Below, piece by piece: positions 1,939 to 25,820 of a DNA stretch of 64,000 nucleotides (position 1 is its first letter; each line of letters begins with the position of its first letter). The position numbers and the translations under genes are program-made. Below the pieces are notes generated by a model. That model was given only the letters and a program-made list of their open reading frames with translations. It was not told where the DNA came from and ran no database searches. This DNA is from a virus: positions 1-64,000 of IMG/VR virus record IMGVR_UViG_3300034198_011161; one strand, given 5' to 3'.

Positions 1939-2595
1939 GTGAAGTATTGGTATGATTATCAAATTAAAAATCAGGTTGTTAATTTTGATTGGCATGCCGC
2001 TACAAAACCAATCGCCAACATAAAACATGATCTTGAATCACTGATTACAGAGCTCAAACTAAGATATAGTCGCGGAGAACTTGACAAGGAAGATGGTAAT
2101 TTCTTTAGTAAAGAGTACGTAGATACTATAGAATGTCCTGGGCTAGATTCCGAAGAAATTAAAAAATTATTTTTTGATTCGGAATACAAAGATGTAGTTG
2201 ATAACAGTAATATTGATCGGCCGATTATTCCGGCAGACATTCGCCGAGAAATTGAAGAGCTCAGTTATAAAAAATTCAATCTACGCCCAGGCACAGTAAG
2301 TATGGGCATTCAATTGCAACATCCGGGTCAATTTGTACTGCTTCACATTGATAGGCCTAAATTTCAAGATTACAAAATACCACTGACGGATCTACAGCAA
2401 GACCCAGTATCAACCAAAATTTTAATTTTTTGTGATGATTGGCAATATGGGCAGGCTTTTCAAATGGGCAAAGAATTTATTAAATGGAAAGCTGGGGATG
2501 TATACACTTGGAATCAGCGAGATGTTCCTCATGGCAGTGCCAATTTTGGATTTGATTCTCGATGGATCTTACGTATTACCGGCGTTCCACTGTAA
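1939..2595 (+). CDS. 2-oxoglutarate/Fe(II) oxygenase-like protein, 218 aa
   Basis: The C-terminal half carries the jelly-roll signature of Asp/Asn hydroxylase-like 2OG-Fe(II) oxygenases: H136-x-D138 (LLHIDRP), distal H198 (VPHGSAN) and R208 ten residues after that His, expected to bind the 2OG carboxylate. Such enzymes hydroxylate side chains or small molecules in the cytoplasm. The N-terminal 100 residues are unique. GTG 1939 is chosen because it follows GAGGAG at good spacing. It sits between a TATAAATA site and the sigma70 promoter of the next operon. Three related proteins follow within 8 kb, so the window holds a small family of these oxygenases. The substrate is unknown. Confidence 0.75.
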   Translation: MKYWYDYQIKNQVVNFDWHAATKPIANIKHDLESLITELKLRYSRGELDKEDGNFFSKEYVDTIECPGLDSEEIKKLFFDSEYKDVVDNSNIDRPIIPADIRREIEELSYKKFNLRPGTVSMGIQLQHPGQFVLLHIDRPKFQDYKIPLTDLQQDPVSTKILIFCDDWQYGQAFQMGKEFIKWKAGDVYTWNQRDVPHGSANFGFDSRWILRITGVPL

Positions 2596-2640: not shown

Positions 2641-2669
2641 TTGACACTGTGTAATCAACACAGTATAAT
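2641..2669 (+). promoter_or_regulatory. Consensus sigma70 promoter with inverted repeat in the spacer
   Basis: TTGACA (2641-2646), 17-nt spacer and TATAAT (2664-2669) both match consensus perfectly. A perfect 7-bp inverted repeat ACTGTGT (2646-2652)/ACACAGT (2658-2664) with a 5-nt centre fills the spacer, the same 7-5-7 geometry as at 1221-1239 but with a different sequence. It drives the cargo operon from 2695. Confidence 0.8.
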
Positions 2670-2694: not shown

Positions 2695-3420
2695 ATGTCT
2701 TTTTTCCTAAACAAAAGAGAGCGTGGCCATCTTGAACGAGGGCACTGGCACTTTGATCCAACAATCTCTGGCCAGGATTATACCACATTGGCTCATTGCC
2801 TGTCGGCGGATCTGTGCAGAGATATTATACAACTAGGCAAGCAAACCTGGGACAAACGCACTGCATTTACCACTGGGTTATATCTTTTGCCGCACCCAGA
2901 TCCTGAAGTTATTGTGGACAAACAAGAAATAGCCGAACGATTTGTTGACAAAATTATTGACACTGACAAAGAATGGTTCAACATTGTGTATATTGATATT
3001 GATCAGTGCCCGGAGCTGGTCAGCAAAATTGAAAATCAACTGAACATTGTGATTACTTCCCAGACCAGTCAACATGCTCTGAAGGCCAACTTGTCGGGCA
3101 TGCGATTGGCTGTGCAAAGACCTGGGTGTATTACTATGAATCACATTGACCATATCTATGGTCACACCCCGGAACGACCCAGCAGGTTTGACGAGCCGTT
3201 TGAAAGAAAAATTGTGGTTTTTTTAGAAGATCATGTTCCGGGACAATATTTCAACATAGGTAATCATAATTTTCACCCATGGCAACAAGGTCAGGCCTTT
3301 ACTTGGGACTGGGGAACTCCGCACCATGCTTGCAATTTTAGCAACACTGTCAGATACAATTTGATGATTTCAGTAGATCCAAGACTCAACCCAAACCTAG
3401 CGCACAAAATATGGAAATAA
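2695..3420 (+). CDS. 2-oxoglutarate/Fe(II) oxygenase-like protein, 241 aa
   Basis: This is the second member of the family, with H150-x-D152 (MNHIDHIYG), H210 in TPHHACN and R220 ten residues later. It also shares the D/WxxGQ...W-x-AG/QG-x-x-x-TW framework with the proteins at 1939 and 8699. ATG 2695 follows TTGGAG. The N-terminus (ERGHWHFDP) resembles the N-terminus of the protein at 8699 (SNWHFDP), which suggests these two are closer paralogues. It is the first gene of an operon with 3411, 3629 and 4804, all overlapping. The reaction is probably a hydroxylation; the substrate is unknown. Confidence 0.75.
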   Translation: MSFFLNKRERGHLERGHWHFDPTISGQDYTTLAHCLSADLCRDIIQLGKQTWDKRTAFTTGLYLLPHPDPEVIVDKQEIAERFVDKIIDTDKEWFNIVYIDIDQCPELVSKIENQLNIVITSQTSQHALKANLSGMRLAVQRPGCITMNHIDHIYGHTPERPSRFDEPFERKIVVFLEDHVPGQYFNIGNHNFHPWQQGQAFTWDWGTPHHACNFSNTVRYNLMISVDPRLNPNLAHKIWK

Positions 3421-3632
3421 TCTTACAACCAGGATGTTGGACAGACGTCAACATCACGCACCGTCAAACAATATTTTTTGAAAAACAAGCATTTGGACAA
3501 CAATGTTTCTTGCTTCCGGCCGATAAAGAAATACACGGACACCAACTATGTGTACCCGGTGATGTTGTTCGTGCATTTAATGCCAGTTTTGAAATCATGC
3601 AATTGAATTTGACAACCCAGACAATTCTGTGA
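3411..3632 (+). CDS. Hypothetical protein, 73 aa, in the cargo operon
   Basis: It starts at ATG 3411 inside the end of the oxygenase gene (10-nt overlap), and its TGA overlaps the GTG of the next gene. The sequence is mostly short beta-strand-like segments (EIILQPG, TIFFEKQAF, IHGHQLCVPGDVV), possibly a small beta-barrel, but I recognise no family. Strict translational coupling on both sides argues that it is real and works with the oxygenase and the PP-loop protein. Confidence 0.55.
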   Translation: MEIILQPGCWTDVNITHRQTIFFEKQAFGQQCFLLPADKEIHGHQLCVPGDVVRAFNASFEIMQLNLTTQTIL

Positions 3633-4807
3633 TAATTGATCCAAAAAATTGGCAAAGTCTAATCGGTAACTCCCAATTGCCAATATGGCGAGTACACGAT
3701 CAGATTTTTTATCACAAGCTGTCGGCCATTCTGTCTACCACCGATGTTGGAATGATCAAATATGATTGTTTTCACAGCTCGCTTGATGCCATAAACTGGA
3801 GTATTGAACCCTCCGAAACTTATCAAGAACTATGCAGACAGCGTGCCCGAGAAATACGAGATTCACACGACTGGGTCAGGCTATGGTACAGTGGAGGCGC
3901 AGATAGTCACACTGCTCTAATGAGTTTTTACCATGCTGGGTGCGCACCAGACGAAGTAATAACCATGCGTTGGTCAGGAATGACTCAGCAAGGCAATCCT
4001 GTAAATATTGAAACTGATCAATTGGTAACTCCTTTGTTGGGTCAGTTGCAAGAGATGTTCCCTCGTACTCGGTTTAGAACCATTGAATATCACAACGATT
4101 GGTTTCAGCGCAACATGAATCAAGATTGGTATTTGTACATGTTCAAACATGAGTTCAATGCTATGTTTGCCAGAAACATATCAGTCAGTCACGACATTGA
4201 TCCACAATTACTGGATGCTTATCAAAAATATGCCACAGTGGCCAATGTCACAGGAGAGCCCAAGCCCAACATATTACACCGCAATGGTGAATGGTGGGCT
4301 ACCATAATTGACAGTCAAATTGCCGGCATGCACGGTGTGCCAGGACTACAGATGTTTCATTTGTCTCCTTCTGCGCCTGACCTATTTGTCAAACAATGTC
4401 ACATGCTGAAAAAAGCATTTCAACAAAAAACTCACGGCCTTGATGAAAAACAAATATGGCAACTAAATCACGATTTGACCAGCAAGAATCTTGCTCTTGA
4501 ACGTGGCAATGAGTTTGATTTGAACAATATCAGTTGGCTACAATGGCAACACGGCAAATTGTTTGATCAACACGGCGATCATGGATTCAACGTAATGGCT
4601 CAGCGATTTTTAGATCACAGCAATGGATTTTATTATGACCATTACAGAAAATTACTGGATCGTGAACTGTGGTCTCAAAAATCTCAGTTTTTTAACACTG
4701 GTAACATTGTTAAAAATAGCACAGGTATATTCAGTCATTTTTGGTCGTTGGACCAACACAAAGTTTCCACAGTGGACGATCTTTTCCCACAAGGCTTTGA
4801 TTTATGA
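3629..4807 (+). CDS. PP-loop ATP pyrophosphatase-like protein, 392 aa
   Basis: WYSGGADSHTAL at residues 86-97 contains the SGGxDS signature of the N-type ATP-pyrophosphatase fold shared by asparagine synthetase, GMP synthetase, TilS and related enzymes. These use ATP to adenylate a carboxylate or carbonyl before amidation or thiolation. No glutaminase domain is present, so it would need free ammonia or another amine donor, or it acts as a ligase. GTG 3629 overlaps the preceding stop. Its stop overlaps the ATG of the permease gene (ATGA at 4804). The remaining 290 residues show no domain I recognise. A biosynthetic role beside the oxygenases is inferred. Confidence 0.65.
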   Translation: MIIDPKNWQSLIGNSQLPIWRVHDQIFYHKLSAILSTTDVGMIKYDCFHSSLDAINWSIEPSETYQELCRQRAREIRDSHDWVRLWYSGGADSHTALMSFYHAGCAPDEVITMRWSGMTQQGNPVNIETDQLVTPLLGQLQEMFPRTRFRTIEYHNDWFQRNMNQDWYLYMFKHEFNAMFARNISVSHDIDPQLLDAYQKYATVANVTGEPKPNILHRNGEWWATIIDSQIAGMHGVPGLQMFHLSPSAPDLFVKQCHMLKKAFQQKTHGLDEKQIWQLNHDLTSKNLALERGNEFDLNNISWLQWQHGKLFDQHGDHGFNVMAQRFLDHSNGFYYDHYRKLLDRELWSQKSQFFNTGNIVKNSTGIFSHFWSLDQHKVSTVDDLFPQGFDL

Positions 4808-6123
4808 TCAGTCCTGATATAGTATTGCCTTTGTTGTTTGGATTTGCAACAGGCATTGTAAGTGGACTGTTGCCCGGTGTAGGTATATTGAGTTTTACTA
4901 TACTGTGTTGGCCATTGTTGAATGACTGGACTGTTATACAGTGTCTGAGTTGGTTCATGGCAGTGATGTTGACTTCACAATTTGTGGGCAGTGTTGTGGC
5001 CACACATTTTGGCATATTAGGAGAAACCAGTAGCTACACTGCCACGGTTGAAGGATTTCGTCTTTTTCAGCAAGGACGAGGACCTATTGCAATTAAATCT
5101 GCTGCAATTGGCAGTTTAATTGCCACGGTAATAGCATTGATAATTTTTAGTTCAGTTAACATCGCTGTAGACTGGATTGCATCCTGGTATCGCACCAGTT
5201 TTCAAGTTTTGATTGTTGTGGTTGTGCTGATAGCGGTGTGTTTTATAAGCCCGGAAAAAAGTTGGCTCAGTAGAATTTTGCAAATTGCAACTGGACTACT
5301 GCTGGGCACCATTGGTCAGCGTTCTATGTATGATTTTACCGTTGATCTAGAAATTATCAAAATTGATCAATCTTTGCCATTGATACCATTGTTGGCTGGA
5401 TTGTACATAATGCCCAACCTTGTACGCAATCACCAAACTATTGCTGTTGCTGTGGTCGAACAAGTGCAAAACAAAGTTGAAAAATTTACTCATTGGACCA
5501 CAGCAATTTTTTACAGTTTTGTGGGATTTTTATTTGGACTTACGCCAGGGCTGACCACTGACATTGCCAGCAATGTCAGTTACAAACTTCAACAATACAT
5601 TGAAAAACGCAAAAAAACATATGATGCCAATGGCAGTGTAGGCTGTGTCACTGCCGCAGAAACAGCCAATAATGCAGCAGCCATAAGTTGCATGTTGCCG
5701 TTGTTGTTGTTTGGTGTTCCTATCACAGTCAGCGAAAGTTTGTTGTATTCTATTATTTCTAGCAAAGGGCATGTGTTTTCTCTTTATAATTTTAATACCG
5801 AGTTGATTGTCAATCTGCTGATAGGGTTAACTGCGGTGGGCATATTGAGTTATGTGATCAGTGGCTCATTGAGTCAACTGCTGGTTAAATTTTATCTGTG
5901 GCTAAGGCACAAAACCATGTGGCTAATTGGTGTTTTATTGTTGTTTGCTGTGATTTGGACTGGTATCAATGAATACAGTTTGCCAGAATATGTTGGAACA
6001 TTGATCTTTGGCCTAACCATAGCTACAATTTTTTGGCGCACTAATTTTTATATTTTGATATTTGCGTTTGCCATCAGTAATCATGCAGTAGAAAATTTGA
6101 TAAGGCTGAAATTTTTATTATAA
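4804..6123 (+). CDS. TctA-like membrane permease of a tripartite tricarboxylate transporter, 439 aa
   Basis: This very hydrophobic protein has roughly ten membrane segments. It shows both halves of the TctA signature: SGLLPGVG near residue 20 and FGLTPGLTTD near residue 245. It also has ETANNAAAISCMLPLL, which matches the conserved ANNAA motif of TctA. TctA forms the large membrane unit of transporters that take up carboxylates using a periplasmic TctC binding protein and a small TctB subunit. The length is slightly under the usual 500 residues. The start overlaps the PP-loop gene. No TctB-like gene is seen. A TctC-like gene follows at 6293. Host-derived cargo is an inference. Confidence 0.75.
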   Translation: MISPDIVLPLLFGFATGIVSGLLPGVGILSFTILCWPLLNDWTVIQCLSWFMAVMLTSQFVGSVVATHFGILGETSSYTATVEGFRLFQQGRGPIAIKSAAIGSLIATVIALIIFSSVNIAVDWIASWYRTSFQVLIVVVVLIAVCFISPEKSWLSRILQIATGLLLGTIGQRSMYDFTVDLEIIKIDQSLPLIPLLAGLYIMPNLVRNHQTIAVAVVEQVQNKVEKFTHWTTAIFYSFVGFLFGLTPGLTTDIASNVSYKLQQYIEKRKKTYDANGSVGCVTAAETANNAAAISCMLPLLLFGVPITVSESLLYSIISSKGHVFSLYNFNTELIVNLLIGLTAVGILSYVISGSLSQLLVKFYLWLRHKTMWLIGVLLLFAVIWTGINEYSLPEYVGTLIFGLTIATIFWRTNFYILIFAFAISNHAVENLIRLKFLL

Positions 6124-6126
6124 ATA
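6119..6126 (+). promoter_or_regulatory. T4-type late promoter candidate TATAAATA
   Basis: An exact TATAAATA straddles the stop codon of the TctA-like gene, 166 nt before the next gene. The intervening stretch holds a possible short frame and a separate sigma70 promoter. Functional status is uncertain. Confidence 0.3.
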
Positions 6127-6149
6127 TTTGTGAGCAGCGCCATTTGTCA

Positions 6150-6239
6150 GTGACGCCGGAATCCAAACGACGCAAAAGTTCGACACTTGTATGGGAAATC
6201 CCTAACGCCGTCCGTAGCAAGATATTGCAAGCCATTTAG
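6150..6239 (+). CDS. Possible 29-residue ORF between TctA- and TctC-like genes
   Basis: GTG 6150 to TAG 6239 encodes a short basic peptide (TPESKRRKSS near its start, EIPNAVRSKILQAI at its end). The frame is also open upstream to the TctA-like stop region. There is no clear ribosome site. It could be a peptide, the remnant of a longer gene, or chance. Confidence 0.2.
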   Translation: MTPESKRRKSSTLVWEIPNAVRSKILQAI

Positions 6240-6240
6240 A

Positions 6241-6269
6241 TTGACTATCATGGAAAAATAGTGTAATAT
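6241..6269 (+). promoter_or_regulatory. Sigma70-type promoter for the TctC-like gene
   Basis: TTGACT (6241-6246), 17-nt spacer, TAATAT (6264-6269). GGAGG at 6281-6285 and GTG 6293 follow at good spacing. This gives the binding-protein gene its own start of transcription, separate from the 2641 promoter. Confidence 0.65.
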
Positions 6270-6292
6270 ATATTTTTATTGGAGGAATATCT

Positions 6293-7165
6293 GTGTTTAA
6301 AATTTTTACTATTATGCTTTCGTTTTTTATGGCCAGTGCTGTCTGGGCCGGAACAAAAATCACCGTGCTTCAGGGCGAAAGTCCCGGGAGCATTGCACAC
6401 GAATTTATCAACACTGTGGTCACTGAACTCAAGACCAAATACGACACAGTTGAAGTTATTAATGCGGGTAACTGTACCAAAGCTGTGGAAATCTACCATA
6501 AATTCAAAGGAGAAAATCTTTTGTTTGTGTTTTACGGCGACCACTGGCTCAGCAATGAACTTGACAAGCACAACTGCGGTGTTCCGATTACACAAACAAA
6601 TTTGGTGTTTTTGACCAGTCAGGCGCAGGTTATTTGCACCCGAGGAAATGCCAATGCTGATCTTGGCAGTTTTAAAAATGGCAAAACCTTTGGATTCCCA
6701 TTTCCACATGATTTTTGGACTGAAGTAGTCAAAGATATCAACAAAAACATTGGCAGTAATCTTCAGCCAGTGCCATACACCACCGGAGGAAAAGTGACCA
6801 CTGGACTGTTGAGTGGAGAAATTGATTGGATTGCCACGGCGGAGTCTCGAGTTGTACCAATGGTACAAGAAGGTCGTATGAGTTGCTTGGCTAAAATGGG
6901 GGACAGTGATCGACATTTTCCTGGTATTAAAACAATGATTCCAAAAGGAAAATTTGTGGATTTCCAGTTTATGTACACCGCTGTGATAAAAAATGGATCA
7001 GCAGATCAGTTACACAAAGATTTCTCGGCCATGCTTAAATCTGGCGCACCGTTGAAAACTCAACTTGATTCTGGTTATTTTCAAACCAACACAGGAACTA
7101 GAAAGGATCTTTGGAAAGAGTACCTACAGCGTAGAGAAATTTTCCGAAACATTTACGGACAATAA
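6293..7165 (+). CDS. TctC-like periplasmic solute-binding protein, 290 aa
   Basis: A clean Sec signal peptide (hydrophobic core LSFFMASAVWA, probable cleavage after AVWA) is followed by a two-lobed binding-protein sequence resembling the TctC/Bug family of periplasmic carboxylate receptors: ESPGSIAHEF near the start, and VPYTTGGKVTTGLLSGEIDW with conserved Gly and Asp. Such proteins capture a carboxylate and deliver it to TctA/TctB. The size fits (Bug proteins are about 300 residues). GTG start after GGAGG. Its separate promoter and strong ribosome site would allow higher expression than the permease, as is usual for binding proteins. The next gene starts 2 nt after the stop. Confidence 0.7.
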   Translation: MFKIFTIMLSFFMASAVWAGTKITVLQGESPGSIAHEFINTVVTELKTKYDTVEVINAGNCTKAVEIYHKFKGENLLFVFYGDHWLSNELDKHNCGVPITQTNLVFLTSQAQVICTRGNANADLGSFKNGKTFGFPFPHDFWTEVVKDINKNIGSNLQPVPYTTGGKVTTGLLSGEIDWIATAESRVVPMVQEGRMSCLAKMGDSDRHFPGIKTMIPKGKFVDFQFMYTAVIKNGSADQLHKDFSAMLKSGAPLKTQLDSGYFQTNTGTRKDLWKEYLQRREIFRNIYGQ

Positions 7166-7167
7166 AA

Positions 7168-8715
7168 ATGGCCGACATACTGATCATTGGCGACAACAAT
7201 TTTATAGATGGCGGTAGTGGTATTTCTCGTGCCAGTGGTGCCCATAGAATTGCCACTCATCTTAGACAACATGGATACACCGTAGAGGTCATTGACTTTG
7301 TTACTCACTGGACTATGGATGAGTGGTGTCAGGCCATGGATATGTTTGTTGGGCCCGAAACACTGTTTTTGGGCATAGCAGCCAACCTTATCACCAATGA
7401 CTCGGCTGTGGATCCGTTGACCTCTAAATGGAAAGAACTTTATCCTGACAAGCCTGTGGTAATTGGCGGAAATAATTTGTTGAGTCGCACCTCACAGAAT
7501 ATTGACTACTACATTGAAGGTTACGCCGAGCAGGCAATTTTGGATTTTATACGCTATCTCAAAAAACAAATACCCAGAGAAGGTGTTCGATGGAGTACGT
7601 TTAGAACTGACAAAAATTTTATTTCTTGCAATGAAGATTACAAAGAGATTGATACCAGTGATCTTACTATTTCTTATCTCGACAGTGATTACATACAGCC
7701 AAATGAAGCAGTAGCGTTAGAAACTGCAAGAGGATGTTTGTTCAAATGTAAATTTTGTACCTATCCATTGATAGGCAAGAAAAAACTAGACTATCTACGC
7801 GACATTCAGAGTTTGGTAGATGAAATAAAATTCAACTACGAAACATGGGGAGTAAACAAATATTTTATCAGCGAAGACACGTTCAACGATAGTCTTATCA
7901 AGATTGAGAGTCTTCATTCTGCATTGGAAAAATTGCCATTCAACATTGAGTTTATGTGCTACGCTAAAATGGAGTTAATGATCTCAAACCCCACCATGGC
8001 CAAACTCATGGGGGAAATGGGTATGCGGGGTGTTCACTTTGGCATAGAAACTTTTAATCAACAAGCAGGCCGAGCAATAGGCAAGGGCATGGATCCAAAT
8101 CGTATCAAAGAAGGCATTATTCGATGCCGTGAAGATTTGCCACGTACTCATATAACTTGTTCCAACATTGTTGGCTTGCCGTATCAACGCGACGAAGAGT
8201 GTTGGGACGCCAACGAATGGTATGAAAAAGAAAGCGGCATAGACCATTGGTCGTGGCAACCTTTGTATTTGCCTAATCCTAAATTTACTATTCACAACAG
8301 CGAGTTCAGTAGAAATGCTCTTATGTATGGATATGTTGAGCTATCAGATCGTGAAATTAGCGAACTGGCCGAAAAAGAAAAACAAGAATTGGGAGATTCA
8401 ACTATTCAACAGGCATCATTTGCAAGAGACACTGTAAGAAAAAAACTTATACTTTGGAAAAATTCTAGCACTGGTAAAAATTACTTTGATGCCAGTAAAC
8501 AAGCAATGTCATTGAATGAAAAAAGTGTTACTAGAAAGTGGAGTCCGTGGGCTATATTTGAACATTCTTACACTGGACTAACAGTTGACGAAATGCGTAC
8601 CTGGGGATATCACAATGTGATACCCAATGTACCAAAATCCATGTTGTTAAAAACTACTCTTGAATTTATCAACCAATATAAATCAAACAAACTCAATCAT
8701 GCAAAAAAACAATGA
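7168..8715 (+). CDS. Radical SAM enzyme with B12-binding-like N-terminal domain, 515 aa
   Basis: Residues 1 to about 140 look like the Rossmann domain found ahead of many class B radical SAM enzymes (MADILIIGDNN..., SGAHRIATHLRQHGYTVEVI). The DxHxxG cobalamin ligand motif is not visible, so B12 may not be bound through His. The radical SAM cluster is C190-x3-C194-x2-C197 (CLFKCKFC), followed by the GVHFGIETF region typical of the B12-type family. Such enzymes methylate or rearrange unactivated carbons. The gene follows the TctC-like gene by 2 nt and overlaps the next oxygenase by 17 nt, so it belongs to the cargo operon. The substrate is unknown. Confidence 0.75.
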   Translation: MADILIIGDNNFIDGGSGISRASGAHRIATHLRQHGYTVEVIDFVTHWTMDEWCQAMDMFVGPETLFLGIAANLITNDSAVDPLTSKWKELYPDKPVVIGGNNLLSRTSQNIDYYIEGYAEQAILDFIRYLKKQIPREGVRWSTFRTDKNFISCNEDYKEIDTSDLTISYLDSDYIQPNEAVALETARGCLFKCKFCTYPLIGKKKLDYLRDIQSLVDEIKFNYETWGVNKYFISEDTFNDSLIKIESLHSALEKLPFNIEFMCYAKMELMISNPTMAKLMGEMGMRGVHFGIETFNQQAGRAIGKGMDPNRIKEGIIRCREDLPRTHITCSNIVGLPYQRDEECWDANEWYEKESGIDHWSWQPLYLPNPKFTIHNSEFSRNALMYGYVELSDREISELAEKEKQELGDSTIQQASFARDTVRKKLILWKNSSTGKNYFDASKQAMSLNEKSVTRKWSPWAIFEHSYTGLTVDEMRTWGYHNVIPNVPKSMLLKTTLEFINQYKSNKLNHAKKQ

Positions 8716-9397
8716 ATACAAAGGGTCGCGGTGGCAATTCACCCGTGACCGAAGTAACTGGCACTTTGATCCGTTTCGTCCTCCTGAACTGGGGATTGAT
8801 AGCTATAGTCCTGTTGGAAGATTTATTGCTGACTTTGCCCCTATAATTGAAAAATACAAAAAACAAGTAGAATCTATTACGTGGGCAACTGGTGTTCGAA
8901 AACAATACCCAGCCAACGATCCGTTAAAAAACGCACTAGCTGAACAACTGGATCACAAACAAGCTGGATTTGATCCTGACCAAATTATGTTTGATCGAGC
9001 ATTTGGAGATGATGAACCATTGTTTAAAAAAATGTCCGCAATTATCGGTATGGAAAACAACGACATTCGTTTTAATTTACAACAGACTGGTCATTTGTTG
9101 GTCACCCACATGGACTATCTTGACGGATTTGAACGAGATGGCAACCCAGGTCGTAGATTTGCTGTCATGCTCGAGGACTGGAGATGGGGACAGATTTTTC
9201 AACTAGGCAATGCCAACTGGACTCAGTGGAAAGCTGGGGATTGTATCACTTGGGAATATCGAGACATACCTCATAGTACCTGCAACATGGGGTGGTGGCC
9301 AAGACCCATGTTGCAAATTTCGGGTACCGTGACTGAAAAAACACAAAAATTTTTGTTAGAAAATAATAGTGATCGAATAATTCAAGTTGATCTATGA
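8699..9397 (+). CDS. 2-oxoglutarate/Fe(II) oxygenase-like protein, 232 aa
   Basis: Third member of the family: H137-x-D139 (THMDYLDG), H192 in IPHSTCN and R202 ten residues on. The stretch LEDWRWGQIFQLGN, followed by QWKAGDCITWEYRDIPH, is nearly superimposable on the same part of the protein at 1939. ATG 8699 is chosen over an in-frame upstream start because the longer form would lie in the end of the radical SAM gene and lacks support. It overlaps that gene by 17 nt and the next by 4 nt. It presumably acts on the same pathway as the radical SAM enzyme; the substrate is unknown. Confidence 0.75.
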   Translation: MQKNNEYKGSRWQFTRDRSNWHFDPFRPPELGIDSYSPVGRFIADFAPIIEKYKKQVESITWATGVRKQYPANDPLKNALAEQLDHKQAGFDPDQIMFDRAFGDDEPLFKKMSAIIGMENNDIRFNLQQTGHLLVTHMDYLDGFERDGNPGRRFAVMLEDWRWGQIFQLGNANWTQWKAGDCITWEYRDIPHSTCNMGWWPRPMLQISGTVTEKTQKFLLENNSDRIIQVDL

Positions 9398-10524
9398 TTA
9401 CTATTATATTTGACCGTGCTTATCAACATGATTTGAAATTTAAAATCAATGGACAACCTGCAATTGTTTGTCAAGTCAATGACACCCACGTACAGATAGA
9501 TGCTGACTATACACTGTTTAATTTAAGTTATCTAACAATTGATTCATTGAATGACTATAAGATTGTTGATGTTTTAATAGACGGGGATAGCTTGGGTTTA
9601 AACAATTTACTGTATCTTTCTTGGGGAGAACTTATCCAAGGGTCTAAAATACAACCATGTATAGAACTTAACTCATATTTAAAAACATGGACCTTGCCTT
9701 TTATGTCTCCATTGGCCTCCTGGGTTGGATTGACAGCTACTAAACATTTCAATGGATTACTTGGACTAGATATCAGTGAACATCGACAAATTTTTTGGCC
9801 GCAATCCATAAGTTTATCTGAGAAGTGGCCCAAGATAATAAAGGACTTTTTTAAATTCAACACTGATTTTGGATGTTACGACAATGTACATCTCGACCAC
9901 TGGTTACACAACCACAACATACCATGGCTATCTTACAACTCTGGATTAGATTGTTCGCAAAAAAAACTCATGTTAACCGAAGCTGTACGTGCAATCAACC
10001 AAGAAAAATTTTCCTGTATCGAAGACAAGACCCTAGGAGAGCTCACTATGACTGTGATAGATGGCGAACCTCGTAATTGGCAACTATGGTTTATTGTTGA
10101 TCCTGAATGCAACAACACAAAATCATGGCAACAGAGACTCACTTGTGATCCCGGTGATATACCGGAAATTTATTCTTTTATTTCATCTCTGCCTGTTACC
10201 AATATATTCTCAGCCTGGGTTGGCTATCTTCCAGCTGGATGTTGCCTGTATCCACACATAGACGGTTACTCAAAATCAAGACTGGATGCTGACACTGGGT
10301 TACGTGGTCTGTACATAAAATTAAATGAAAGCCCAGGGCATATGATGAAGTTTTCAGGGTTTGGATTACTTCCAGACGGCGATGCCATAATCAACAATAA
10401 AAATTTTGCACATGCTGTTGTTAATGATAGCAATGTTGATCGTTATATTCTAAACATACAATTCACCGGCGAACAAGATCAATTTAGCCATCTAATTCAG
10501 TTACCGACCAATGATAGTCTTTGA
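9394..10524 (+). CDS. Large 2-oxoglutarate oxygenase-like protein (Asp/Asn hydroxylase type), 376 aa
   Basis: The C-terminal third carries H288-x-D290 (YPHIDGYSKSR), H340 (NFAHAV) and R350, again ten residues after the distal His, as in Asp/Asn beta-hydroxylase-like enzymes. The first 250 residues form a separate region without a family I know and may recognise the substrate. ATG 9394 overlaps the previous stop (ATGA). It ends the cargo operon; a new promoter follows 21 nt after its TGA. Several Trp and His residues lie in LDHWLHNHNIPWLSYNSG. Confidence 0.65.
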   Translation: MITIIFDRAYQHDLKFKINGQPAIVCQVNDTHVQIDADYTLFNLSYLTIDSLNDYKIVDVLIDGDSLGLNNLLYLSWGELIQGSKIQPCIELNSYLKTWTLPFMSPLASWVGLTATKHFNGLLGLDISEHRQIFWPQSISLSEKWPKIIKDFFKFNTDFGCYDNVHLDHWLHNHNIPWLSYNSGLDCSQKKLMLTEAVRAINQEKFSCIEDKTLGELTMTVIDGEPRNWQLWFIVDPECNNTKSWQQRLTCDPGDIPEIYSFISSLPVTNIFSAWVGYLPAGCCLYPHIDGYSKSRLDADTGLRGLYIKLNESPGHMMKFSGFGLLPDGDAIINNKNFAHAVVNDSNVDRYILNIQFTGEQDQFSHLIQLPTNDSL

Positions 10525-18232: not shown

Positions 18233-18481
18233 ATGAAACAAGTAGTATTACATCAATTCAATATGGGCGATGTAGATGATGTTGAAATCTATGTTGCCCA
18301 ACCCATTTATGAATGGCAACAAACACCAGCAGGTCGTTGGTGCACAGAACATGCCAGCAATTTACATTACCTTACAGGATTTGATCCAAGTGGATACGGA
18401 TACCGCATTACCATCACAGGTGATATGGAAGATAAATTAGCAACGGAGTTTTTATTACGATGGAAAAACGTACAATCCTAG
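18233..18481 (+). CDS. Conserved-looking phage protein, 82 aa
   Basis: The segment MGDVDDVEIYVAQPIYEWQQ, then TPAGRW, matches a small protein frequent in T4-like marine phages (pattern DVEDPEIYAAQPIYEWQQTEQG). Function unknown. ATG 18233 sits at the expected transcription start, so translation may be leaderless. It overlaps the epimerase gene by 22 nt. Confidence 0.65.
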   Translation: MKQVVLHQFNMGDVDDVEIYVAQPIYEWQQTPAGRWCTEHASNLHYLTGFDPSGYGYRITITGDMEDKLATEFLLRWKNVQS

Positions 18482-19440
18482 TCACAGGTGGTCTGGGACT
18501 GATAGGTCACAATGTTGTTGCTCAATTGGAAGCACTGGGTCACACAGTTGTTGTCACAGATATCAGAACCAATTACGGACTAGTTCCACAAGAAGAAATC
18601 GATTACTTGATGGCTGAACGTCTGAAGAAGATTCAAACCAAGGAAATATATCGCATTGATATTGCTGATTCCAATGGCATTGACTTCTTGTTGCGTAAAT
18701 TTAATCCAGACACTATTATACACCTTGCTAGTTTTCCCAGACAAAAAGTAGTCAATGCTAATCCGGCCCTTGGCTCACGCACTATGAGCGAGGGTCTGCT
18801 AAACTTGTTGGAAAATTCCAAAAAACACAAAGTCAGCAAGTTCCTTTATATTTCAAGCTCAATGGTCTACGGTAACTTTGAGGATAACGTTGCAGAAGAT
18901 GCTGTTTGTTGTCCACAAGGGCAATATGGTATCATGAAGTTGGCTGGTGAATGGCTGACTCGTGACTACACTCGTAGCTCAGGCATGACACACGTTATTA
19001 TTCGTCCCAGTGCTGTGTATGGTCCATTGGATGTGAACGATCGTGTGATTGCCAAGTTTATGTCCACAGCCATGTGTGGTGGTATACTAAAAGTAAATGG
19101 AGCCGCAGAGTCATTGGATTTTACCTACGTAGATGATACAGCTGCAGGTATTGTGGCCGCTGCTCTAAGTGATCGTGCCAATAATCAGACCTATAACATC
19201 ACAAAAAGCCATGGTCGTAGTTTGTTGGATGCTGCCAACCTTGTGGTTAACCTTGCAGGACGCGGTACAATAGAAGTAAGAGACAAAGATTCAGACTTCC
19301 CTAGTCGTGGAGCATTGAATATAGATCGAGCACGTCAAGACTTTGGATACTTCCCGCAGGTTGATATAGAAGAAGGCTTCCGGGAATATTTCAATTGGTT
19401 TAACAACTCAACCTATTGGAAATCTCAATGTCAGGACTGA
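18460..19440 (+). CDS. NAD-dependent sugar epimerase/dehydratase (extended SDR), 326 aa
   Basis: The Rossmann motif TGGLGLIG (residues 9-16) binds NAD(P). The catalytic pair is in YGIMK (YxxxK) around residues 156-160, with the active-site Ser in ISSSMVYG. RPSAVYGP and YVDDTA are typical of nucleotide-sugar epimerases and dehydratases of the GalE/RmlB type. The likely role is changing a nucleotide-activated sugar in the cytoplasm. ATG overlaps the preceding gene and its end overlaps the aminotransferase by 13 nt, a common pairing in amino-sugar pathways. The precise reaction cannot be assigned. Confidence 0.85.
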   Translation: MEKRTILVTGGLGLIGHNVVAQLEALGHTVVVTDIRTNYGLVPQEEIDYLMAERLKKIQTKEIYRIDIADSNGIDFLLRKFNPDTIIHLASFPRQKVVNANPALGSRTMSEGLLNLLENSKKHKVSKFLYISSSMVYGNFEDNVAEDAVCCPQGQYGIMKLAGEWLTRDYTRSSGMTHVIIRPSAVYGPLDVNDRVIAKFMSTAMCGGILKVNGAAESLDFTYVDDTAAGIVAAALSDRANNQTYNITKSHGRSLLDAANLVVNLAGRGTIEVRDKDSDFPSRGALNIDRARQDFGYFPQVDIEEGFREYFNWFNNSTYWKSQCQD

Positions 19441-20522
19441 CCATACCTTTTACTGGTCTTAAGAAGCAATACAATAACTTAAGAACAGAAATACTGGAAG
19501 CCACTGATGAAGTGCTACGCAGTGGGCAGTTAATGAACAGCAACTACACAGCTGAGTTTGAAAACTGGCTGGCCAAAAAGAACTCCTGTAAGTACGCTGT
19601 CACTTGTCATTCAGGTACTCATGCATTAGAAATCATTGCCAGTTACTATGCTGATCAAACTGTAGTTCATCCTCCACGTGTGTTGATACCCAGTATGACC
19701 TATGCGGCCACGGCCAATGCATTTATGCGAGCAGGTTGGGACATACACTTTGTGGACACAGATCACTATGGCATTATTGATCCAGAATCAATTCCCAATG
19801 AACTAAGTTATCAAGCCATAGTAATGGTAGGCCTGTATGGTGCCAGTGTCAAAAATCTCAGCGATCGGCGCTGGCCTGTACGCAGTGTTGCCAATGATGT
19901 GGTCTGGATTGAAGACGCTGCACAGCATTGGCTTTCTGACAAAGGTATCCGATTTGGCAGTGCGTCTGCTATCAGCTTTGATCCTATGAAGAACCTTGCT
20001 TGTTATGGCAATGGCGGCGCAGTAGTAACCAACGACATAGATCTGTTGGAATATGCTAGAGCTTGGCGAGACAATGGCAAAAGCACACATCAATTGATAG
20101 GAACCAACAGTCGCATGAGTGAAATAGACTGTGCGCAAATGATGGTCAAAACACACTACCTAGATCAATGGCAAGATCGTAGACGAGATATTGCTGCGTA
20201 TTGGATGGAACGTTTAAACAAAAGTAATATACGTTGTTTGGTTGATGCAAAGAACTTCAATGATCATTCGTTTCACAAGTTTGTGATTGATCTAGATCAG
20301 CGTGATATTCTCAAACAAAATCTAGCATTGAAGAAAATTGAAACACGCATACACTACAATTTGCCATTGCATGAATTGGGTGTGTTTAGACAGTGGCCAG
20401 GACCAGATATTCTCAGCAGAGCCAGTGCATTGAGTAGACGTGTGTTGAGTTTGCCTATCTATCCAGAACTCAGCGATCTCGAAGTTGACTATGTCATTGA
20501 TCAGGTTTTAGATTGTGCTTGA
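19428..20522 (+). CDS. DegT/DnrJ/EryC1-type PLP aminotransferase, 364 aa
   Basis: The start ATG 19428 gives SGLTIPFTGLKKQYNN, the typical N-terminus of sugar aminotransferases. CHSGTHALEI is the substrate and PLP-phosphate region, and WIEDAAQHW holds the Asp that binds the pyridinium N. FDPMKNLACYGNGG carries the PLP-binding Lys (consensus FxxxK-x6-GxGG). These enzymes transfer an amino group to a keto-sugar nucleotide. Together with the epimerase it would make an amino or deoxyamino sugar for the nearby glycosyltransferases. The 3' end overlaps the convergent gene at 20494 by 29 nt. Confidence 0.85.
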   Translation: MSGLTIPFTGLKKQYNNLRTEILEATDEVLRSGQLMNSNYTAEFENWLAKKNSCKYAVTCHSGTHALEIIASYYADQTVVHPPRVLIPSMTYAATANAFMRAGWDIHFVDTDHYGIIDPESIPNELSYQAIVMVGLYGASVKNLSDRRWPVRSVANDVVWIEDAAQHWLSDKGIRFGSASAISFDPMKNLACYGNGGAVVTNDIDLLEYARAWRDNGKSTHQLIGTNSRMSEIDCAQMMVKTHYLDQWQDRRRDIAAYWMERLNKSNIRCLVDAKNFNDHSFHKFVIDLDQRDILKQNLALKKIETRIHYNLPLHELGVFRQWPGPDILSRASALSRRVLSLPIYPELSDLEVDYVIDQVLDCA

Positions 20523-22089
20523 TCAAAGCATAACTAGCTAACCAAGCCCAGTCGTAACTTTTCCTTAGCTCCTCCATAGCTCCGCCCACTGATTCATAGT
20601 ATTCCACGGCATCTTCGGCGCCTTTCATACTCCATTTAGATTCAGTATTATCCACAGTACACCATTGTTTGAGTCGATATTGGCTTTCTATATCTGTGGC
20701 TGAACGCAATTTCAATGTTTCTCGAAATGCAGTTCTCCAACACATCCATGAATCCATATGATAATAGGCTGTGCCACTCAGTATGGGCACAACTTCGTGC
20801 GCTGAATCTAAAGTGAAGTCCAATCCTTTCCCTGTGTTGTTCAGAGTCAACTGCTTGTTATAGGCAATCATGGCTTGATGGCCGTACTCCAGCCCGTTCA
20901 CAGGATTTCGTGCATGAAAGATATAGTGCTTGGGTTGTTGTAGTCTATCTGGTTGCCATGCCCAATCAAACAACGAATCGACTGCTAGCGTGGCAAACAC
21001 AGCAAAGAACCATGGTGTGGTACTGGCGTTGGCAGCTGCATGATAAGCTGCCACACGTCCCGGTACACGATCCACTCGTTGTACGCGATTACGCTCCCCT
21101 ACTAAAAACTTTAATCTTTCATAATTATAGTCAGCATTGACTTCGCCGTTGCTGATAAACACAATGTCCAATGGTTGATCTTTTGATAGATTACTGTGAC
21201 TTTTATCTACCACAGGATAATCATAGACTTGAGTGTGTATAAAGTTTTTGGCTTCACGTGGAATTAGCACTGTGCTGCCACCGGGACTCAATGTTGTTAC
21301 TGCGCGAGTTTCTTGTCGCCATAGGTTCAATGTGGGCGTCTGCGAATATTCAGCATCGCTGACAGAAAACTGTACCACAGGAGATACAAAGTCGTATTTC
21401 ATAATAGCGTCAACTTGACTGTCATGGGTATGATGTACCCGAGGTACTGGGTGCCTAGGTACTGTGCAATTTCCCACAAAGTGTATGGTGTCAAACCATT
21501 CTAACAAAGCTAGAGTTTTGGTTTTCTCCAGGAAGCTAGGAACATGCACATAAAATGTGTCGCCAAACTTTTGTTCATTGCTGGCAAACACATGCAACAT
21601 GTCCTGTTGCCATTCGCTGGGATGCCAAGTGAAATCAAAGTCGGAGTAATCACATACACTGCTGACTACCCAAACATATTCTTCCTGCACTTTGCTCAAT
21701 ACACGTTTCAATGTACCGAGATAATCACTGATAAATCGTGTGCTGTAATCGCAATCAACTGTTAGTCCATTTCCATGGTCAATACCCACAACAGGCACAC
21801 TGACTTGGCGAGGTAGTACGTGATGCGTTCGGTTAGATTCCGTGCCACCAATTTTGGGCACAAGATATGTGCCACCATTGGCTTGATGCTGACTGGGCCA
21901 TATATGAGTTTGATTGCTTTCCCACGGTGTTGGCTCCCAAAGAAAATCAAACCCAGAATAATCAGTTAAATAGTTTACAATCCAACAGTATCTTGTACTA
22001 CTTAACTCCTGTGCTTGCTCAATAGAATTTACTGCCTGTTCATGTGGAAACAGATTGGGTTTTGGGCCTAGGTAGAATATATCAAACAT
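20494..22089 (-). CDS. Glycosyltransferase-like protein with a threefold internal repeat, 531 aa
   Basis: I see three diverged copies of one module. Copy 1 has RYCWIVNYLTDYSGFDFLWE (about residue 33). Copy 2 has EYVWVVSSVCDYSDFDFTWH (about 136). Copy 3 has PWFFAVFATLAVDSLFDWAW (about 343) followed by HARNPVNGLEYGHQAMI. Copy 3 also resembles the GT-like protein at 35668 (RARNHVNGLMYGNGG, AWRAGFRE against CWRTAFRE). Classical DxD residues are not obvious in copies 1 and 2, so some modules may be non-catalytic. It starts at an ATG that shares CATG with the divergent gene at 22088. A promoter lies in that gene (22110-22138). The function is inferred only from the similarity and context. Confidence 0.6.
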   Translation of the reverse strand: MFDIFYLGPKPNLFPHEQAVNSIEQAQELSSTRYCWIVNYLTDYSGFDFLWEPTPWESNQTHIWPSQHQANGGTYLVPKIGGTESNRTHHVLPRQVSVPVVGIDHGNGLTVDCDYSTRFISDYLGTLKRVLSKVQEEYVWVVSSVCDYSDFDFTWHPSEWQQDMLHVFASNEQKFGDTFYVHVPSFLEKTKTLALLEWFDTIHFVGNCTVPRHPVPRVHHTHDSQVDAIMKYDFVSPVVQFSVSDAEYSQTPTLNLWRQETRAVTTLSPGGSTVLIPREAKNFIHTQVYDYPVVDKSHSNLSKDQPLDIVFISNGEVNADYNYERLKFLVGERNRVQRVDRVPGRVAAYHAAANASTTPWFFAVFATLAVDSLFDWAWQPDRLQQPKHYIFHARNPVNGLEYGHQAMIAYNKQLTLNNTGKGLDFTLDSAHEVVPILSGTAYYHMDSWMCWRTAFRETLKLRSATDIESQYRLKQWCTVDNTESKWSMKGAEDAVEYYESVGGAMEELRKSYDWAWLASYALIKHNLKPDQ

Positions 22090-23170
22090 GATTAGAATCG
22101 ATGAACTTTATTATAACATAATTGTACCAAGAGTGCAAGCAAAGTTGGCTCACGGCGCACATTGGTTTGATCCTTTTGGTAGTGTAAAGTTTGAAGACTT
22201 GTGTAGTGTTCCGCCGATCAATAGTGGTCATAACTCTGTGAGATATTTGTTTTGGGATCAAGAACCGTTGCATAAAGAACTAGTCGATCAAACTTTGATT
22301 AAATTTATTGATATGTTTGATCAAGGACAACGACATATTATTACCAGTGAATACAACAGTGCCAATGTGGATTATGTCCAACGTACTTATGGATTCCAGC
22401 CACACTATTACTTCTTTCACGGATGGGCTGCACTAGATTGGTTTAGAGGCTATCATAGAAGTTTTCTAATGCCCAAACCTCAACAAAGAACTATCTCTAA
22501 AACATTTATAGCACCCAACAGAATCATAGCAGGCAATCGTGAACATAGACTGTTGATGTTGTATCATATGTTCAAACATAACTTACATGACAATTGGATT
22601 AGTTGCCCTCAAACATGCCCAGCAGAAAATATCAGTGTGTACGACGCTGTGACTAAATTAAAACACATTTATCCAGACATTGAGTCAGTGTTTGCCCAAA
22701 CAAATTTTCCAAAATGTTTCCCAGGCGAATCCAACAGTCCCATGCACAGTTATCAACTAAGTTTGTTTGACGAATGTGCTGAAAGTTTGTTGTATGTGGT
22801 TACAGAAACTGTGGCCGACGGTGTCCGGCAACATCTAACTGAAAAAACATTCAAACCTATTTGTTTGAACATGCCATTTGTGATTGTAGGTACTGCTGGC
22901 AGTCTAGAATATATCCGACGCTACGGATTTAAAACATTTGGGGACTTATGGGACGAAAGCTATGATCATGAGATCAACAATGTTGCTCGTATACAAAAGA
23001 TTGGTCAACTGTTAAAAGAGTTAGATCAACTGTCCCAACAAGAAAAGCAACTGTTATTTCGTCATGCCAGTGAGATTTCACAACACAACTTTGATCACTT
23101 TTACGGCGGCGGATTTGAACAGATATTATGGACAGAATTAACTGGTATGTTGGAGGGCATGGGTGTTTAA
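22088..23170 (+). CDS. Phage glycosyltransferase-like protein, 360 aa
   Basis: The C-terminal region has HLTEKTFKPICLNMPFVIVG, then TAGSLEYIRRYGFKTF, a signature shared with the proteins at 23163 and 32041 and with phage proteins annotated as glycosyltransferases (GT-B-like C-terminal part with E and K of TEKxFKP). The N-terminal half is variable (LFWDQEPLH, HGWAALDWF). It likely transfers a sugar from a nucleotide donor in the cytoplasm. ATG 22088 is part of a CATG shared with the start of the minus-strand gene; no clear ribosome site is present. It overlaps the next gene by 8 nt. Confidence 0.6.
   Translation: MIRIDELYYNIIVPRVQAKLAHGAHWFDPFGSVKFEDLCSVPPINSGHNSVRYLFWDQEPLHKELVDQTLIKFIDMFDQGQRHIITSEYNSANVDYVQRTYGFQPHYYFFHGWAALDWFRGYHRSFLMPKPQQRTISKTFIAPNRIIAGNREHRLLMLYHMFKHNLHDNWISCPQTCPAENISVYDAVTKLKHIYPDIESVFAQTNFPKCFPGESNSPMHSYQLSLFDECAESLLYVVTETVADGVRQHLTEKTFKPICLNMPFVIVGTAGSLEYIRRYGFKTFGDLWDESYDHEINNVARIQKIGQLLKELDQLSQQEKQLLFRHASEISQHNFDHFYGGGFEQILWTELTGMLEGMGV
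22110..22138 (-). promoter_or_regulatory. Sigma70-type promoter inside the 22088 gene, driving 20494-22089
   Basis: On the minus strand TTGCAC (22138-22133), a 17-nt spacer and TATAAT (22115-22110) precede the ATG at 22089 by 20 nt. It lies wholly within the coding sequence of the divergent gene. Confidence 0.55.
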
Positions 23171-24353
23171 CTTTGTATTCGATCAAAAACATCTGGGCAG
23201 ACCTTATCCTAATCTGGCACCAATGATGGATGCATCAAACGGTTATCATGGTATGGGAGACACATTTCCATACATTGTGCCGTGTAGGTTATTGTATTTC
23301 TGCCAGGATCATGATTATCCAATGTCCGTGAGCTACATCGATCAACCTGTTCCTGACAATGCATACTACCCAGTGGGCATTGGATGGTTTGATTTTGATC
23401 AAGATTATTTTGCGTTGATGAGTGAGCAGGTGCGGACATTGTTGCAGAAACAACAGATGAGAGTGTTGTTTTATTATCATGAGGGCGACAACCCTGCCCA
23501 CGAAAAAACACGCCTAGATCAATTATGTCAACAACACCAATTACCCGCAGACTGCTATAGATTTGTCAGCGGCAACACTGCATGCAAGGCATTGTCAAAC
23601 TTTGTTTATTTTCCAGACCACGAATTATTTTACTGGCGCAATGGCGTTGTTTGGAACAACCGTCCGCAAGCAGGATGTCACGTACATAATCGTCCTCGCA
23701 GTCGTCAGTTTACCTTGTTGAGTCGCATACACAAATGGTGGCGTAGTACCATAGTCAGTTATTTTCACCGTGAACAACTGCTGAACAACAGTTACTGGAG
23801 TTACGGCAATCAATGTATAGGAGATCAATATTTGGATAATCCTATACAAATACATCAATTTCCAGGACTTGATGTTTACATGGATGAATTTTTAGATCGT
23901 GGTCCATATACCTGTGATACCCTGACTCCAGACGAACACAACAGTCACTGGACATTGGTTCCGGAGCATTTTGAAGACAGCTATTGTCACTTGGTATTAG
24001 AAACATTTTTTGATGCCGACGGATCGGGCGGAGCTTTTTTAACAGAAAAAACGTTCAAACCCATACGTCACGGACAACCATTTGTGATTTTTGGCGCACC
24101 ACACAGTCTTGCTACATTACGCAAACTTGGATATAGAACCTACGATCAATACATTGACAACAGTTACGATACAGTAACCGACAACACCAAACGCTTTATC
24201 AAACTAATTGATACAGTACGCAATCTTAGTAATCAAGATTTACATGTATGGTTCGAACAATTGGCAGAAGATGCCAGGCACAATCAAGAATTGTTTGTTG
24301 GCAGTAAGTATGATAGGTTAAAGCAATTAGCTACAGACCTCAACACCATATAG
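23163..24353 (+). CDS. Phage glycosyltransferase-like protein, 396 aa
   Basis: Paralogue of the preceding protein: FLTEKTFKPIRHGQPFVIFG, then APHSLATLRKLGYRTYDQYI, in the C-terminal half. The N-terminal half differs. It uses GTG 23163, overlapping the preceding stop. Its 3' end overlaps the convergent carbamoyltransferase gene by 27 nt. The two probably act one after the other on the same glycan, but donor and acceptor are unknown. Confidence 0.6.
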   Translation: MFNFVFDQKHLGRPYPNLAPMMDASNGYHGMGDTFPYIVPCRLLYFCQDHDYPMSVSYIDQPVPDNAYYPVGIGWFDFDQDYFALMSEQVRTLLQKQQMRVLFYYHEGDNPAHEKTRLDQLCQQHQLPADCYRFVSGNTACKALSNFVYFPDHELFYWRNGVVWNNRPQAGCHVHNRPRSRQFTLLSRIHKWWRSTIVSYFHREQLLNNSYWSYGNQCIGDQYLDNPIQIHQFPGLDVYMDEFLDRGPYTCDTLTPDEHNSHWTLVPEHFEDSYCHLVLETFFDADGSGGAFLTEKTFKPIRHGQPFVIFGAPHSLATLRKLGYRTYDQYIDNSYDTVTDNTKRFIKLIDTVRNLSNQDLHVWFEQLAEDARHNQELFVGSKYDRLKQLATDLNTI

Positions 24354-25820
24354 TTGTTCAAAGCGATCAGCATCTGCGCGATCGTTGACCATGGGTTCGC
24401 CTCTGATGTTCAAACTGGTGTTGAGCAACATAGGACACCCGGTCATCACATACCATTTTTCTAGTAGTTCTCTGATGCCCGAACCATTTGCAGGCACTGT
24501 TTGTATTCTTGAAGTACCGTCCACATGCACAATAGCAGGAAATAGATCAGGCCTACGGCAAGTAGCCACAACTTGCATGTAACTGGTATCACTAAACCCA
24601 GTGGGCACATCAAAGTACTTGTGTACGTGCTCAGCAAGAATGACTGGGGCAAACGGTCTAAATTTTTGTCTGCGCTTGATTTCATTTACCCGATCCTTTA
24701 TTTCTGGTCCTCTTGGGTCTGCGAGCAAACTTCTGTTGCCCAAGGCTCTGGGTCCAAACTCGGCTCTGCCGGAAGCAACACCCACAATACCAGTAGTAAC
24801 AAGATGATCCAACAACTGGTTAACAGGATACGGCCCCGGTATACAGTGTCCCAAGTACGCATCACGCCAATGTATTTTTTTACCCAGTGCAAGAGCTGCG
24901 GCACCAAGACTAGAACCAGCATCGCCAGGACAAGGCATAATCCATATATTATCAAAATGATTTCCTAAATTTCTATTGGCCAAACAGTTGAGTGCAACAC
25001 CGCCCATATAGACCAAATTAGTGCTGAATCCAAATCCACGAGCACGAGCCATTACTTGCCCTATTAAAGTTTCTGCCAGCATCTGCGCACTAGCAGCTAG
25101 ATCCTCGTTGGTAGCCATGTTTAAATATTCATTGCTGATACCTAAGTGTAAATTATCTTGAAATTCAATATTGTAGTCATCAGCAACAAGATCTCTATGC
25201 ATGCGTTGATACCATGCAGGTTTTCCCCAACCTGACATTCCCATGGTGATATATTCTTCGTCTAGTGGGTGTAGACCAACTCGCTGAGTGATTGCACTAT
25301 AAAACAGTCCGATTGAGTGAGGATACTGTTGTCCCCAAAGTCGTTGATAAGTTGCTCGACCCGTCGAATCGTATTCTGCTCCCCAGATTGATACGGTATC
25401 AAATTCGCCGATGGCATCTATGACCACTACTGTGGCACGGTTGTAAGGTGAAGTTTGAAATCCAGCAGCCGCGTGACTTAAATGATGATTGTGTGTGGTA
25501 ATCTTGCCCGGAAATGTACCAAATTCTCGTCCAATTTGTTGTTTGAGTATTTGCATCACTGTTAATTTGTCCCACTCAACACCTTGTCCAGCACGAAAAT
25601 TACGTAGTTGTTTCATCCAAGGTCTTTCATAATACGCAACATGTTGTATACTATAATTAACTAACTCAGCAAGTAAGCCTGGACTTAAATTGGCATCATT
25701 CTTTTGTTTTGAATAACGCTCACTGTGTCCGGCAAATATAATTTCTCCGTCGTTGCGAATCACAGTGGCAGCTGCGTCATGGAATCCGGCGCTGACGCCC
25801 AGTATATGCTTTAATTTCAT
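24327..25820 (-). CDS. NodU/CmcH-type carbamoyltransferase, 497 aa
   Basis: Full-length match in motif order: ASKHA-type N-terminus (ILGVSAGFHDAAATVI), the metal/carbamoyl-adenylate His cluster HNHHLSHAAAG (residues 110-120), GMSGWGKP, MGGVALNCLANRNL, and the C-terminal YrdC-like part with GRAEFGPRALGNRSLLADPR. Such enzymes use carbamoyl phosphate and ATP to put a carbamoyl group on a hydroxyl of a sugar or antibiotic. This is the last gene of the 15-gene operon, so carbamoylation may be its final step. ATG 25820 is coupled by an ATGA overlap to the 33-residue gene upstream. Its end overlaps the convergent glycosyltransferase gene. Confidence 0.9.
   Translation of the reverse strand: MKLKHILGVSAGFHDAAATVIRNDGEIIFAGHSERYSKQKNDANLSPGLLAELVNYSIQHVAYYERPWMKQLRNFRAGQGVEWDKLTVMQILKQQIGREFGTFPGKITTHNHHLSHAAAGFQTSPYNRATVVVIDAIGEFDTVSIWGAEYDSTGRATYQRLWGQQYPHSIGLFYSAITQRVGLHPLDEEYITMGMSGWGKPAWYQRMHRDLVADDYNIEFQDNLHLGISNEYLNMATNEDLAASAQMLAETLIGQVMARARGFGFSTNLVYMGGVALNCLANRNLGNHFDNIWIMPCPGDAGSSLGAAALALGKKIHWRDAYLGHCIPGPYPVNQLLDHLVTTGIVGVASGRAEFGPRALGNRSLLADPRGPEIKDRVNEIKRRQKFRPFAPVILAEHVHKYFDVPTGFSDTSYMQVVATCRRPDLFPAIVHVDGTSRIQTVPANGSGIRELLEKWYVMTGCPMLLNTSLNIRGEPMVNDRADADRFEQLYGVEVCS

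Follow-up and report, generated by a model that had tools for sequence, protein, structure and literature searches.

PP-loop enzymes such as LarE, asparagine synthetase and NAD synthetase activate a carboxylate as its adenylate. A tctA domain has been listed as a putative auxiliary metabolic gene of unknown role in SUP05 viral contigs, together with 2OG oxygenases (eLife 2014, PMC4164917), and the tctA observation is repeated in a review (PMC6359870). Among cellular homologs, archaeal TctA may function without TctB or TctC (PMC5812351, PMC5898192), which makes a TctB-less version of the TctABC transporter plausible. In the literature searched, mostly outside subscription journals and preprints, we did not find described a phage TctA-TctC pair, its linkage to a PP-loop gene, a phage clade of TctA or a cytosolic DctP, and the pairing of TctA-TctC with a PP-loop gene in phages seems undescribed as a system.

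The record analysed here is IMG/VR IMGVR_UViG_3300034198_011161, a 74.6-kb contig, whose positions 1 to 64,000 constitute the window (64,000 nucleotides). Between 2695 and 10524, eight ORFs on the + strand overlap or abut inside each of two units (Table 1), as the first-pass annotation had described; unit 1 runs from OX2 to TctA and unit 2 from TctC to OX4, and a fourth oxygenase ORF, OX1, sits just upstream. Each unit had also been credited with a sigma70 promoter. The one ahead of unit 1 is a perfect consensus, whereas the candidate ahead of unit 2 was rejected: 43 sites with 9 of 12 matches were found against 31 +/- 6 expected, which places it at chance level, so that the promoter claim stands for unit 1 alone. 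The core of the region, made up of the PP-loop, TctA and TctC genes (3629-7165), is as a whole best explained, with a probability of roughly 0.55, as one case of a module carried by large tailed phages and adapted to them, namely a TctB-less importer of a small carboxylate, in many phages coupled to a possibly activating ATP pyrophosphatase.

Table 1. Features of the two-unit region and its upstream flank, in window coordinates.
Feature	Position	Strand	Evidence
OX1, DSBH oxygenase-like ORF, 218 aa, GTG start	1939..2595	+	HxD...H...R alignment; TauD E=0.02
Unit 1 promoter, sigma70-type, TTGACA-17-TATAAT	2641..2669	+	12/12 consensus matches
OX2, aspartyl/asparaginyl-hydroxylase-like oxygenase	2695..3420	+	PF05118 E=0.0019 (below cut-off); facial triad
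Small ORF, 73 aa, function unassigned; no obvious transmembrane segment, not a TctB	3411..3632	+	
PP-loop protein (N-type ATP pyrophosphatase-like), 392 aa, SGGADS	3629..4807	+	Leave-one-out profile; fold matches
TctA permease, 439 aa, phage "short" clade	4804..6123	+	PF01970 1.8e-51; tree; leave-one-out
Weak promoter-like site ahead of unit 2, TTGACT-17-TAATAT	6241..6269	+	9/12, within chance
TctC-type solute-binding protein, 290 aa, signal peptide	6293..7165	+	Fold, N-terminus, leave-one-out
B12-binding-type radical SAM enzyme, 515 aa, CLFKCKFC	7168..8715	+	PF04055 4.6e-17; PhpK/HpnJ-type models
OX3, DSBH oxygenase	8699..9397	+	HxD...H...R alignment
OX4, DSBH oxygenase, N-terminal extension, 376 aa	9394..10524	+	PF05118 E=0.013; HxD...H...R alignment

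The window TctA covers positions 4-412 of the 423 in the PF01970 profile. Its GLLPGVG and AAETANNAA stretches, the PGxG-type and ANNAA motifs already recognized in the first-pass annotation, align with P24, E286, N289 and N290, conserved in phage and bacterial TctA, and the essential residues are kept in 17 phage copies. In the TctA tree, the window sequence belongs to a divergent phage-only clade, the short clade, whose 17 sequences lie on one side of a branch with a support of 100/100; the sampling left archaeal short TctAs aside, and long branches could have joined phage TctAs artificially. Phage TctAs are of two kinds, a short one of 430-470 aa, which includes that of the window, and one of canonical length, which forms a separate group, 8 of its 9 sequences falling together in a clade (SH-aLRT 99); a single 250-kb contig, G020, carries both. 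With the window TctA left out of the model, the short-clade profile still gives it 277 bits, the highest score from outside the clade being 216, and the members treated in this manner span 260-506 bits. Among Pseudomonadota the best score of this profile is at most 222 bits, and the matches listed sit in reading frames no shorter than about 500 aa. It had been proposed that phylogeny might reveal a bacterial clade origin joined to phage-specific conservation; the phage-specific clade is there, and a recent bacterial donor was looked for and not found, the Pseudomonadota matches scoring as given above.

Further viral TctA loci were found by scanning IMG/VR with TctA alignments. Single-sequence scans of viral contigs with the TctA, radical SAM and PP-loop proteins returned nothing, indicating that alignments are needed to detect relatives. 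Searches of the PDB by phmmer with the PP-loop protein, TctA and TctC gave nothing useful, and isolate-phage records yielded no true relatives, only bacterial records or contaminants.

The identity of TctC is weak by sequence, with PF03401 reaching only 3.7e-4, under its cut-off, and firm by predicted structure: against the AlphaFold model (pLDDT 82), Foldseek ranks 1-17 in the PDB are all TctC, Bug, MatC or TphC proteins, with E values down to 2.4e-13. Its N-terminus, MFKIFTIMLSFFMASAVWA, is signal-peptide-like, in agreement with the signal peptide first assigned to it, and two cysteines, C115 and C198, are invariant across the phage family. The leave-one-out profile gives the window TctC 92.6 bits vs 36.7 for the best outside sequence, and such profiles place the window TctA, TctC and PP-loop protein all in phage families. 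TctC is the next gene to a short-clade TctA in 24/24 non-redundant further phage loci, while shuffled gene orders place it near TctA (two-gene window) in a mean of 6.3 and a maximum of 15. The two genes, whose occurrence apart in related phages had been raised as a point to check, are thus never separated in these loci, in the window or in locus L008.

Regarding the third component, TctB (PF07331) has no match anywhere in the 74.6-kb record, as anticipated from the first reading of the region, and none in the other short-clade records, including contigs of 218-343 kb, with the exception of G015-like records that also hold a canonical TctA. TctB is present beside several canonical phage TctAs. 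Since the records are fragments, only in the larger contigs can TctB and DctP be taken as firmly absent. With TctB unmatched, the importer is to be seen as TTT-like and TctB-less, not as a complete TTT.

The baseplate wedge genes on the record match those of jumbo phages (the best match, at 34.8% identity, comes from the 469-kb Sinorhizobium phage Phosso). Contamination is unlikely because G+C is even over the cassette region and a phosphoesterase gene (PHROG 547) just upstream has close relatives in the TctA-bearing viral contigs L009 and L014. The TctA-TctC pairs belong to genuine phage genomes: terminase is encoded in G002, G003, G011, G033, G034 and G040, and at L123:2209-6056 the TctA-TctC pair lies directly ahead of a terminase-like ORF. 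The notion that the cassette represents bacterial contamination or degenerate passenger genes draws on three IMG/VR matches that fall outside the phage clades (L011, L012 and L017) and on INPHARED matches that are bacterial records, but the window genes are intact and share their contig with baseplate genes, the TctA clade is phage-only and terminase is present on other contigs; we consider such an origin extremely improbable.

Other genes of the window deserve mention. A Gram-negative porin (PF13609, 9.7e-45) is encoded by the phage at 13698-14786, 3 kb from the importer, and has no relative among isolate-phage records. At 18460-25820, an epimerase, a DegT aminotransferase and a NodU/TobZ-type carbamoyltransferase suggest sugar or glycan modification, and a single ORF of 4700 aa occupies 42107-56209 in the tail region, adjoining the baseplate genes.

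The PP-loop protein of the window falls in no Pfam family. With the window protein left out, the profile of its family scores it at 138.9 bits vs 6.6 for the best background, and the SGGxDS motif is near-invariant in 15 PP-loop sequences. The family has no match at 80 bacterial TctA loci, in 398 Pseudomonadota genomes (a search run without a positive control) or in 50,697 isolate-phage records. It is also diverse, at 12-23% identity to the window protein, which, together with the low confidence of the structural model (56.6), makes a single shared reaction doubtful.

A window-type PP-loop gene is found within three genes of a short TctA in 10/24 loci, and the count within two genes, likewise 10/24, compares with a shuffled mean of 3.2 and a maximum of 8; in over half of the loci it is not near TctA. 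The orders TctC-TctA-PP in L008 and PP-TctC-DctP in L025 point to a gene set that is rearranged yet kept. Five TctA-TctC loci (L121, L122, L123, L125 and L127) have no PP-loop gene nearby. These would suit plain nutrient uptake, whereby TctA and TctC let the infected cell take in more of an organic acid for carbon or energy, the PP-loop, oxygenase and radical SAM genes being part of other pathways that just share the cargo region, a view in keeping with the mixed cargo of these phages and with the porin of the window, which would open the outer membrane. Across 60 phage loci, however, TctC (44) and PP-loop genes (37) are the only widely recurrent neighbours apart from DctP, above shuffled order, the next commonest occurring in only 6, and we regard plain uptake as possible, albeit rather unlikely.

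Individual loci show further gene combinations. L119:9327-12969 holds in a row TctC, 5-oxoprolinase-type PxpB/PxpC carboxyltransferase domains and a PP-loop gene, a combination hinting that the substrate of this phage is 5-oxoproline or a comparable lactam. In L124, two asparagine-synthetase-like genes lie between TctC and the PP-loop gene, and L016:3923-9410 carries oxygenase, acetyltransferase-like, rubrerythrin-like and asparagine-synthetase-like genes followed by a canonical phage TctA.

As to the chemistry of the PP-loop protein, its SGGxDS pyrophosphate-binding loop and, on the low-confidence model, a Rossmann-like fold agree with an N-type ATP pyrophosphatase. Its nearest folds are LarE, TilS, MnmA, GMP synthetase and NAD synthetase, the best PDB match being LarE (LarE-like fold, E=1.6e-4), confined to profile residues 82-182; no LarB or LarC was noticed. 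Similarity to QueC, MnmA and TilS is weak, and would fit an enzyme that modifies nucleic acid in a QueC/TilS-like manner, with the transporter supplying a precursor or being unrelated. Nevertheless, LarE acts on the carboxylate of a small cofactor, and no queuosine or deazaguanine pathway genes occur among the annotated or recurrent neighbours, making nucleic acid modification improbable.

The family identities, conserved residues, phage clade, gene linkage and absence of TctB are established by the comparisons, whereas we infer the inward direction of transport, the carboxylate substrate and the coupling of the PP-loop chemistry to the imported compound. TctC would be exported to the periplasm and bind a small organic acid, which the phage-lineage TctA, working without TctB, would carry inward by ion symport; in many phages, the PP-loop ATP pyrophosphatase may then adenylate a carboxylate for transfer of nitrogen, sulfur or another nucleophile. 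Alternatively, the binding protein and the permease might alter envelope signalling of the host or block a second infection, considering that TctC/Bug proteins can act in signalling (PMC5812351) and that phages often alter the envelope. The permease, however, keeps all conserved transport motifs, and no sensor kinase or regulator recurs adjoining it, so that a sensing or surface role has little likelihood. An active role for the importer is favoured by the residue, linkage and clade checks, and the initial interpretation of the region is in our view partly supported.

The region was initially supposed to combine uptake with hydroxylation, adenylation and radical chemistry. The combination of uptake with adenylation is strengthened by the repeated occurrence of PP-loop family genes in the neighbourhood. 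Hydroxylation fares less well, oxygenase relatives being present in only 6/60 phage loci, and radical chemistry drops out as a shared feature: neither the radical SAM gene nor most oxygenases are conserved partners of TctA. The radical SAM protein has the CxxxCxxC motif and a weak B12-binding match. The HxD...H...R pattern, comprising the facial triad and the 2OG-binding arginine, is invariant in the alignment of OX1-OX4 and their phage relatives; the oxygenases do not reach curated Pfam cut-offs, and Pfam support alone is weak. The radical SAM enzyme and the oxygenases may represent phage-specific tailoring additions in this virus, any coupling to the importer being specific to it and unproven. 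Six or more radical SAM/SPASM-type genes follow one another at 26969-35699 (-), and members of that family are also near TctA in L016, L019 and L118. A defence role for the region was dismissed, PADLOC giving nothing strong except the radical SAM domain.

A sister family of phage binding proteins, of the DctP type (PF03480, 1.8e-51), was matched at 464 viral loci, of which 80 were kept (L135-L214, e.g. L143:9001-9936). These loci share TctC and PP-loop genes, and many DctP genes adjoin a PP-loop gene; this adjacency is weaker (13 observed vs a shuffled mean of 6.8 and a maximum of 14) and is not claimed as a strong linkage. Phage DctP lacks a signal peptide, the median distance from an in-frame stop to the first conserved motif downstream being about 14 residues in 98 ORFs, and the protein appears to have moved to the cytosol. 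An arginine that aligns with the known carboxylate-binding position of SiaP-type TRAP binding proteins is kept in 36/36 sequences. DctP is discarded as a partner in the window, whose own record has none. On a broader and decidedly tentative view, large phages may share a "capture and activate" module in which TctB-less TctA-TctC, cytosolic DctP carriers devoid of signal peptide and a PP-loop ligase would jointly import, hold and activate organic acids of a single class, the end product being specific to the phage, for example a hypermodified nucleotide, a cofactor or a glycan.

Single metabolic genes are known in phages; if a whole secondary importer with its periplasmic binding protein has evolved within phages, some large phages would be rewiring host uptake. 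The binding-protein families TctC and DctP are widespread among uncultivated phages, and the PP-loop linkage turns the isolated domain match of 2014 into a concrete, testable pathway. In the available portion of that work (PMC4164917), SUP05 tctA figures as a domain match only, with no description of the TctC pair, the PP-loop linkage or the phage clade. Compared with TRAP DctP (PF03480), the phage proteins keep the aligned arginine but differ in lacking the signal peptide, and no DctQM was noticed. With LarE/asparagine-synthetase-type PP-loop ATP pyrophosphatases, the window protein shares SGGxDS and the PP-loop N-terminal fold, although identity to LarE is ~15% over part of its length and its C-terminal half is unmatched. 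Finally, the TTT family (TctABC; TC 2.A.80) is resembled in the TctA permease, the TctC/Bug-fold protein, the adjacency of their genes and the GxLPG and AETANNA motifs, whereas the window type has no TctB, a TctA of 430-470 aa instead of about 500, a TctC below the Pfam cut-off and a place in a separate phage clade, with a PP-loop partner.
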